Both the position numbers and the translations under genes were made by a program. 64,000 bases of DNA. Origin: Bacteroidota bacterium. GTDB taxonomy: Bacteria; Bacteroidota; Bacteroidia; 2-12-FULL-35-15. The stretch covers positions 1-64,000 of the forward strand of contig JAHEXZ010000023.1 in NCBI GenBank assembly GCA_023251835.1, written 5' to 3'. Each line of letters begins with the position of its first letter. The first letter of the stretch is position 1. The notes below the pieces were generated by a model. It was given only the letters and a program-made list of their open reading frames with translations, did no database searches and had not been told where the DNA came from. Positions 8,812 through 50,408 of this stretch are shown one piece after another.

Positions 8812-8840
8812 GGGTTGAATGAAAGACCCATTGCGGGTAG

Positions 8841-8909
8841 GTCATTTCGAGTTTATCGAGAAATCAGGGTAGCCGCATCACGCACGTTTCTCGATAAACT
8901 CGAAATGAC
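8841..8909. repeat. GTCATTTCGA-family palindromic element: perfect 23-bp inverted repeat
   Basis: gtcatttcgagtttatcgagaaa (8841-8863) and its exact reverse complement (8887-8909). Confidence 0.85.
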
Positions 8910-8986
8910 CACCGCACAGAATTTTTTCTTTAGCATATTCTCCTTTGAAAAAATAATTTCCAACCCCTAATTTGCATAAATAATAA

Positions 8987-19052: not shown

Positions 19053-19226
19053 CTGCGAATTACGAATTTTAACGAATAACTAAATGTAAAAAACTTTACT
19101 TTCATGTCAGATTCTAAAATTACGGGCAAATGTACAAAAAAGTATAGCCTGTAAATACGTGTCAAAATTTAAAGTCAGGGATCGGCAGTTGTATCAAATA
19201 GAGCTTTACCTTTGCAAATCCAAAAT

Positions 19227-19883
19227 ATGTTATTTCAACAAATAAAATATCTTATTGTAAAGGAGATTAAGCTCGAATTGCGTAATAAATATGCATTAGG
19301 AGGTATCCTGATTTATGTTGTTTCTACAGTATTTGTAAGTTACCTTTCCTTCAAACAGATTATAAATCCTGCCACCTGGAATGCTTTGTTCTGGATAATC
19401 CTGTTATTTGCATCTATAAATGCGGTTGCTAAAAGCTTTATCAATGAATCTGGCGGAAAAATGCTTTATCTATACACGCTGACAGGCCCTCAGGCAGTTA
19501 TTCTTGCAAAAATTATTTATAATTCTTTATTGCTTATTGTATTATCTGGTTTGTGTTTATGTGCCTACACTTTGTTTATTGGTAATCTTATCGGGGATTT
19601 GCCCTTATTTTTGATTGTGCTTTTAATGGGAAGCATGGGCTTTTCTTCATTGTTAACAATGGTGTCGGCAATTGCTTCTAAAACAAGTAATAACTTTACA
19701 TTGATGGCAATTCTGAGTCTGCCAATAATGTTACCATTGCTTATGGTGTTGATAAAGGTTTCTAAAAACGCAATTGATGGATTGGAGCTTTGGGACTGGA
19801 ATTCACTACTTATATTAGCATTTTTAAACGTGATAGTTATCAGTTTATCTTATCTATTATTTCGTTACCTTTGGAGGGATTAA
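19227..19883 (+). CDS. ccmB: Cytochrome c maturation protein CcmB (heme exporter)
   Basis: Multi-TM ABC permease; next to ccmC/E/F. Start trimmed from 19212 because the TACCTTTG -7-like box at 19207-19214 overlaps that start. Confidence 0.88.
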   Translation: MLFQQIKYLIVKEIKLELRNKYALGGILIYVVSTVFVSYLSFKQIINPATWNALFWIILLFASINAVAKSFINESGGKMLYLYTLTGPQAVILAKIIYNSLLLIVLSGLCLCAYTLFIGNLIGDLPLFLIVLLMGSMGFSSLLTMVSAIASKTSNNFTLMAILSLPIMLPLLMVLIKVSKNAIDGLELWDWNSLLILAFLNVIVISLSYLLFRYLWRD

Positions 19884-19895
19884 AAAAAGGCTGCG

Positions 19896-20005
19896 CCTCC
19901 CGGCCTCCCCTTCAGGGAGGGGGAAGAATGAGTATATACAATGATTTTTAATAATAAAAATAAAACGGGTAGTGTGGACTCCTCCCTGAAGGGGAGGCCG
20001 GGAGG
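19896..20005. repeat. Perfect 25-bp inverted repeat (CCTCCCGGCCTCCCCTTCAGGGAGG) flanking and entering the start of ccmC
   Basis: Left arm 19896-19920, right arm 19981-20005, 60-nt loop holding the only in-frame ATG (19941). Confidence 0.9.
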
Positions 20006-20666
20006 GGCAATTTGGTGGAAGCTCATTGCTGTTGTATTTGTTCTTTATACAGTTATTGCTGGTTTTTTAGTTTCGGTTCCTGCTCAACCTATACTTCACG
20101 AAAGCATCCGTAATCTTTATTTTCATGTGCCGATGTGGTTTTCCATGATGGTTATTCTTTTTATATCTCTGTGGCACAGCATTAAATACCTGAGTAAATC
20201 AACTATAGAAAGTGATATTATTGCAACACAGGCAGCGCATACAGGGATGCTGTTAGGGGCTTTGGGGTTGGCAACAGGTTCTTTCTGGGCACGCTATACC
20301 TGGGGAGCATGGTGGGTAGCTGACACCAAGCTGAATGGAGCTGCAATAACTATGTTGATTTACTTAGCCTATTTTATTTTACGAGGTTCAATTGACGAAG
20401 AGCAGAAACGCGCCCGTATTGCGGCTGTTTATAATATATTCGCATACGTTATGTTAATTGTATTTTTAATGATTTTACCTCGTATGAGTGATTCACTACA
20501 TCCTGGTAATGGTGGGAACCCCGGTTTTAATAAATATGATTTGGATAAAAATATGCGTTTGGTATTTTATCCTGCTGTGATTGGCTGGATATTACTGTCT
20601 GTTTGGATACTTACACTTAGAATCCGGTTACAAAAATTAAAAAGAAAATTAATGTTCAATGAATAA
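19941..20666 (+). CDS. ccmC: Cytochrome c maturation protein CcmC
   Basis: SIRNLYFHVPMWFSMMVI, WARYTWGAWWVADTKLNGAAITMLIYLAYFILRG. N-terminal about 24 residues overlap the 25-bp repeat. Confidence 0.9.
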   Translation: MIFNNKNKTGSVDSSLKGRPGGAIWWKLIAVVFVLYTVIAGFLVSVPAQPILHESIRNLYFHVPMWFSMMVILFISLWHSIKYLSKSTIESDIIATQAAHTGMLLGALGLATGSFWARYTWGAWWVADTKLNGAAITMLIYLAYFILRGSIDEEQKRARIAAVYNIFAYVMLIVFLMILPRMSDSLHPGNGGNPGFNKYDLDKNMRLVFYPAVIGWILLSVWILTLRIRLQKLKRKLMFNE

Positions 20667-50294: not shown

Positions 50295-50302
50295 AATTAG
50301 TA

Positions 50303-50403
50303 TCCCCCTTTTTAAAAGGGGGAGCAAGGGGATTAAATTTCCCCTTTTTTAGTAGGGGAAAAAGAGTAGTTCCCCCTTTATTAAAGGGGGATAAAGGGGG
50401 ATT
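50303..50403. repeat. Three tandem CCCCCTTT..AAAGGGGG palindromic units
   Basis: ccccctttttaaaagggggagcaaggggatt (50303), cccctttttt agtagggg (50341), cccccttta ttaaagggggataaagggggatt (50372). Confidence 0.85.
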
Positions 50404-50408
50404 AAAAA

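Follow-up and report, generated by a model that had tools for sequence, protein, structure and literature searches.

Hairpin-ended palindromic repeats inserted in frame in Bacteroidia genes, read as a DUF559-linked family

The ccmB-ccmC junction

The window analysed here is a stretch of 64,000 nucleotides at the start of contig JAHEXZ010000023.1 from a Bacteroidota bacterium. Within it, ccmB and ccmC follow one another on the forward strand and an inverted repeat spans their junction. The features of the locus are as follows.

19212..19883, + strand: ccmB (Pfam CcmB), upstream of ccmC; 8 nt separate its stop codon from the left repeat unit
19892..19920, - strand: left repeat unit, tail outward, GCGCCTCCC-GG-CCTCCC-CTTCA-GGGAGG, within the 5' untranslated part of ccmC
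19921..19980, + strand: A+T-rich spacer (loop) between the perfect arms, with TGA 19929-19931, ATG 19941 and GTG 19974
19980..20009, + strand: right repeat unit, tail outward, TCCTCCCTGAAGGGGAGG-CC-GGGAGGGGC, reading SSLKGRPGGA in the ccmC frame
19941..20012, + strand: N-terminal extension of CcmC, 24 residues (MIFNNKNKTGSVDSSLKGRPGGAI), missing in nearly all genus relatives
19941..20666, + strand: ccmC (Pfam Cytochrom_C_asm), conserved from WWK (20013) on

The perfect 25-bp inverted repeat reported in a preliminary description of this DNA is exact, as CCTCCCGGCCTCCCCTTCAGGGAGG at 19896-19920 is the reverse complement of 19981-20005. With one mismatch the arms reach 29 bp (19892-19920 and 19981-20009). 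They form the longest inverted repeat of the window, with a length well outside chance expectation: when the window was shuffled 30 times (first-order), the longest perfect arm was mostly 12-14 bp and at most 17, and 25 bp was never approached. The single strand of the repeat region has a folding energy of -74.5 kcal/mol (z = -9.0), which predicts a very stable RNA hairpin, and apart from the stem the loop has little structure. Matches of the hairpin to miRNA and sRNA families in Rfam all fell under the gathering score and were set aside as generic hairpin matches.

The 60-nt loop does contain the sole ATG in the ccmC frame (19941), as had been described, together with a second possible start, the in-frame GTG at 19974, that the description had passed over. 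An in-frame TGA at 19929-19931 closes the frame on its upstream side, and translation of ccmC must therefore begin within the loop, at one codon or the other. Whichever codon is used, the right arm contributes the residues SSLKGRPGGA to CcmC, as had been proposed; between this arm and WWK the only conceivable start codon is ATT (20010). Two other repeats of the window may be recorded here. A run of hairpin-plus-tail units of like architecture and different letters (TCCCCCTTTTTAAAAGGGGGAGCAAGGGGATT and inverse copies) occupies 50301-50405, and another palindromic repeat, GGTCATTTCGAGTTTATCGAGAAA, lies at 8840-8910, with perfect inverted arms of 24 bp around a 23-nt loop.

The CcmC N-terminus in relatives

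Where the start of ccmC is readable, nearly all genomes of the genus begin CcmC with four residues ahead of WWK (MKKN-WWK). The 24-residue extension is for this reason best read as derived from an insertion, and the comparison of CcmC N-termini bears out the earlier suggestion that an inserted repeat had reshaped this end of the protein. Extensions with decayed unit pairs are present in G042 (L044/L215) and L057 at a site identical to that of the window. In the sister species G031 the extension is about equally long, aligns without gaps (GSSQKRKGLKTY vs DSSLKGRPGGAI) and contains no recognisable unit, and the extension of G041 looks unrelated. A tree of CcmC by itself left the branching of the genus genomes without resolution. 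In a concatenated tree G000 groups with G031 and G033 at 97%, and G042 with the extension-less G039. Because G039, G002 and G017 all lack the extension, this tree fits one or several origins, either a single ancestral insertion with later losses or repeated insertion.

A dispersed family of hairpin-plus-tail units

Each arm of the ccmC repeat was said to be palindromic and to resemble dispersed Bacteroidetes repeats, and each is indeed one unit of a dispersed family. The basic unit of about 31-33 nt is a short GC-rich hairpin, CCTCCC(C)-loop-(G)GGGAGG, followed by two bases and a tail, GGGAGGGGC (consensus YYGGGAGGGGC), which is a copy of the 3' arm of the hairpin. A longer variant has the form CCCTCCCC..GGGGAGGG-CT-GGGGAGGGG. 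A search for the palindrome in the window's genome (171 contigs, at most two mismatches) found 13 places, and none for a control pattern. A 0.92-Mb sample of the same genome, chosen without regard to most units, held 8 units of at least 14 bits, two of them the ccmC pair, against 0 in the reversed sequence. Of 31 genus genomes, 20 contain the unit pattern, with up to about 27 matches per genome; in the class it is present in 55 of 395 Bacteroidia genomes belonging to 29 of 196 genera; in both sets the reversed-pattern control gave about zero. Units were also seen in nine stretches of viral contigs.

The units occur solo or as inverted pairs, in intergenic DNA or in frame within conserved proteins. 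Among 83 loci, 33 of 34 close pairs are in the -+ orientation (tails outward) with a spacing mostly of 43-110 nt, and two inverted units together span roughly 100-170 bp. Partner units are more alike than in within-genome permutations (1 of 2000). About a dozen pairs or more have in common a core, GAAYCAACRCACAAGCC, beside one of their units, and the remaining spacers are unrelated; the ccmC spacer gave no clear match to this core. The notion that a pair and its spacer always move as one piece was dropped, since the spacer in ThiC is native coding sequence. Given this and the differences among spacers, a pair may not in every case have moved as a single unit of DNA.

In-frame insertion into conserved genes

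Insertion of the units is not confined to ccmC. PyrD of the window's genome carries KSPSLKGRAGEGL, which is absent from 25 of 25 relatives (G041 has a different insert there). Two units lie on either side of the conserved QHxGxxFGANTP of ThiC, a variable loop of RluD is filled by a unit pair, and in two genomes only a unit forms the N-terminus of KorB; for ThiC and KorB, too, there are relatives free of the inserts. Across genus and class, further hosts with in-frame units were identified by Pfam, namely HemF, urocanase (two sites), FeoB, LeuRS, IleRS, acetyl-CoA synthetase, 3-hydroxyacyl-CoA dehydrogenase, WbqC and the signal peptides of PorP proteins. SpoIIE-type phosphatases of five genomes (L179, L153, L318, L336, L385) have recurrent unit-derived inserts in the loop from GDFYW to DCTGHG. 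Because pairs of this kind also occur in the middle of genes (ThiC, RluD, FeoB, SpoIIE), where no start codon is enclosed, a position across a start codon is just one of the settings in which they insert.

By our reading, a single one of the six possible frames, that giving SSPxGRxGGA or PSPxGRxGEG, accounts for more than half of the units within genes; this count covers units inside open frames only and gives no measure of how often genes are broken. The most frequent reading of units within genes is a Ser/Pro/Gly/Arg-rich linker (SSPxGRxGGA). The empty sites of relatives are too diverged at the DNA level for the junctions or a target duplication to be placed. In L181, two neighbouring PorP-like genes have one unit each in the signal peptide (1077-1107 and 2519-2549), and part of the hydrophobic stretch of the first seems to be supplied by the element core.

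A DUF559 endonuclease within long copies

What is new here is that long copies of the element in IleRS, LeuRS and acetyl-CoA synthetase carry DUF559, a small Vsr-like endonuclease domain, between their units. According to Pfam, the domain interrupts in frame the open reading frames of IleRS (L207), acetyl-CoA synthetase (L208) and LeuRS (L392/L415). In L207, L208 and L392 it sits between inverted units; the left unit of LeuRS is degraded, and the profile detects only the right one. A second acetyl-CoA synthetase (L412, from G010) has its DUF559 insertion, likewise enclosed by inverted units, at a site identical to that of L208. The two DUF559 parts are 79% identical and the host parts 71% and 78%, and judged from these identities both look like old, vertically inherited copies rather than products of homing. 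The IVDFVCLEKxLIIEVDG motif, expected of a PD-(D/E)xK nuclease, is intact in the inserts. In the IleRS, LeuRS and acetyl-CoA synthetase frames Pfam found nothing but the host domains and DUF559, and no Hint (splicing) domain.

DUF559 is similar to 3hrl, an endonuclease-like protein of known structure (E = 9e-18), and has weak sequence similarity to 3r3p, a nuclease of a phage mobile intron (E = 0.055). Two DUF559 matches with 34-36% identity were present in phage records. A DUF559 protein of Caulobacter has been reported to be Vsr-like and tied to the DNA damage response (PMC12907096).

The Bacteroidia cases were found by way of the units, which is a biased route, except for L074 and a neighbour of L145. 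L074, from a more distant Bacteroidetes genome, was retrieved through CcmC alone; it has a DUF559 open reading frame with a decayed 21-nt flanking inverted repeat between ccmB and ccmC, the junction at which the window carries its pair. Plasmid DUF559 genes from other phyla were sampled to avoid the bias of discovery through units. Flanking inverted repeats (score at least 15), mostly of the hairpin-plus-tail kind, are enriched at these genes: 11 of 22 have them, compared with 5 out of 96 genes in their neighbourhood (p = 2e-6), and some of the five control genes share the repeats of the DUF559 element itself. The other half (11 of 22) have no strong flanking repeat. Deinococcus DUF559 genes are flanked by CACCCCCTCCC-AG-CCTCCCCC..GGGGGAGGAG and its inverse, and the Bacteroidia unit profile matches on both sides of them.

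The window's own ccmC copy is short, with no DUF559 between its units, and no DUF559 gene was found in the approximately 1 Mb (24%) of its genome that was sampled. In Sphingomonas parapaucimobilis plasmids (L443, L460), DUF559 genes are set within operons, with sufB and sufC or transhydrogenase genes on their two sides, an arrangement comparable to ccmB-DUF559-ccmC in L074. The Escherichia coli DUF559 gene ycjD is followed downstream by several CCCTCACCCCAACCCTCTCCC-type units (L448, 1230-1480). This gene was tried as a test of presence and absence and rejected: the genomes examined that lack ycjD carry other genes in its place, so that there is no clean empty site.

Comparison with known systems

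Short palindromic repeats that insert in frame into genes include the Rickettsia palindromic elements (RPE) and CGTC-tagged REPs (PMC3733652, PMC10969869). Like these, the Bacteroidia units are short palindromes, single or in dimers, that lie in frame at N-termini and within conserved genes unrelated to one another. They differ in being a hairpin plus a tail, in sequence, in phylum and in having long versions with DUF559. The CGTC tag lies near 5 (5' flank) and 2 (3' flank) of 156 units, and GACG near 2 and 0. REP doublets, or REPINs, are inverted pairs of about 100 bp made of palindromic units of 20-40 nt and associated with RAYT transposases (PMC3733652, PMC6006769). The units described here share the inverted pairing and the many copies per genome, but have no GTAG foot: GTAG is near 6 and 2 of the 156 units, and CTAC near 3 and 13 (5' and 3' flanks), without a fixed position. 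Because the defining tags and the RAYT link both fail, the family is filed under neither RPE nor REP.

As in MITEs, the copies are short and dispersed, have terminal inverted repeats and mostly contain no gene. Unlike in MITEs, each terminal repeat is itself a hairpin and the spacer varies in length and content. The long copies recall homing endonucleases (including the Vsr-like phage nuclease, PDB 3r3p) in placing a small nuclease gene within conserved genes. They are unlike them in that no intein or intron was found, the insert is translated within the host protein and hairpin repeats mark its bounds. No report on the repeat sequence or on its link to DUF559 was found among the open-access papers searched, which were judged mostly by title and abstract.

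Origin of the repeat

The whole set is read as a DUF559-linked family of palindromic elements. On this reading the ccmC repeat is an inserted mobile element with hairpin ends, its short forms are non-autonomous relatives of the DUF559-bearing copies, and the nuclease drives or drove their spread. We give this reading a probability of about 0.68. That the short elements depend on the long ones, and that the nuclease is behind the spread, we infer from the position of DUF559 between the units and from its flanking repeats.

The main competitor, unlikely though worth serious attention, is that the units are indeed a mobile palindromic family but are moved by another enzyme, DUF559 being a passenger or another user of the repeats. 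The lack of DUF559 in that quarter or so of the genome which was sampled, the plasmid genes without strong flanking repeats and the core of the short pairs, which is not obviously within the DUF559 copies, are all consistent with this. Against it, no gene other than DUF559 was found enclosed by units, and DUF559 was so placed in four host genes and across several phyla. A RAYT (Y1) transposase as the mover of a classical REP/REPIN family is very improbable. The inverted doublets of short palindromes would suit it and Y1 genes are present in the window's genome, one with a YIHNNP motif; however, 31 Y1 loci from 14 genus genomes were free of units of at least 12 bits out to a distance of about 1.5 kb, none of these Y1 genes is flanked by units, and the GTAG and CGTC tags are wanting at the unit ends. 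A Y1 (IS200-like) transposase gene at 1907-2496 of L117 (G000 C124) is flanked by several copies of palindromes unrelated to the units (CGACTCCGGCCGGAGTCG among them) and resembles a REP-type system of its own.

Selection of the hairpin as a regulatory structure that closes on the start region and limits translation of ccmC relative to ccmB, as the preliminary description had envisaged, is improbable too, if less so than the RAYT reading. In its favour are the high stability of the fold (z = -9.0) and the arms, which are perfect in the window's genome as against decayed in G042 and L057. Yet pairs of units are also found mid-gene and between genes, close relatives presumably express ccmC without the hairpin, and the loop is little structured outside the stem. 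A throttle on ccmC is unnecessary to explain the repeat and found no support in the analysis, though it may exist as a side effect. An assembly artefact or a chance repeat is hardly credible: the assembly is fragmented, but decayed versions occupy the ccmC site in other genomes, the family is class-wide with zero control matches, and the shuffled windows yielded nothing of comparable length.

On the DUF559-linked reading, a pair of units with tails outward would behave like terminal inverted repeats. The DUF559 nuclease, expressed from a long copy, would probably cut DNA at the hairpins, at the target or close to either, after which repair would copy the element. Short pairs and solo units would be derivatives, mobilised in trans or produced when part of an element was deleted. 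Selection would retain insertions that preserve the frame, in tolerant loops, signal peptides and N-termini, and those in intergenic DNA. At ccmC, a pair would have inserted across the ccmB-ccmC junction, the left unit becoming 5' untranslated sequence, the start codon lying between the units and the right unit supplying codons of the 24-residue extension. More tentatively, and at somewhat less than even odds, the tail-hairpin repeats, common in many bacterial phyla, may belong to a single superfamily of minimal mobile elements. In its autonomous form, inverted units would surround a DUF559 Vsr-like nuclease, and its inserts in genes would be translated in frame.

Significance

Selfish palindromes that insert in frame are best known from Rickettsia. 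The present observations extend a Rickettsia-like lifestyle across Bacteroidia, including tRNA synthetases and central metabolic enzymes as hosts. The in-frame insertion across many genes, the class-wide distribution and the DUF559 of the long versions had all been missed in the preliminary description. They carry a warning for annotation: in such genomes, an N-terminal extension or a short loop rich in Gly, Ser and Pro may derive from an element. If the link to DUF559 is true, a large class of palindromic repeats that lacks a mobilising enzyme would gain one open to testing, and a widespread 'domain of unknown function' would gain a role. If the superfamily reading is also true, a nuclease can ride within an essential enzyme without splicing.
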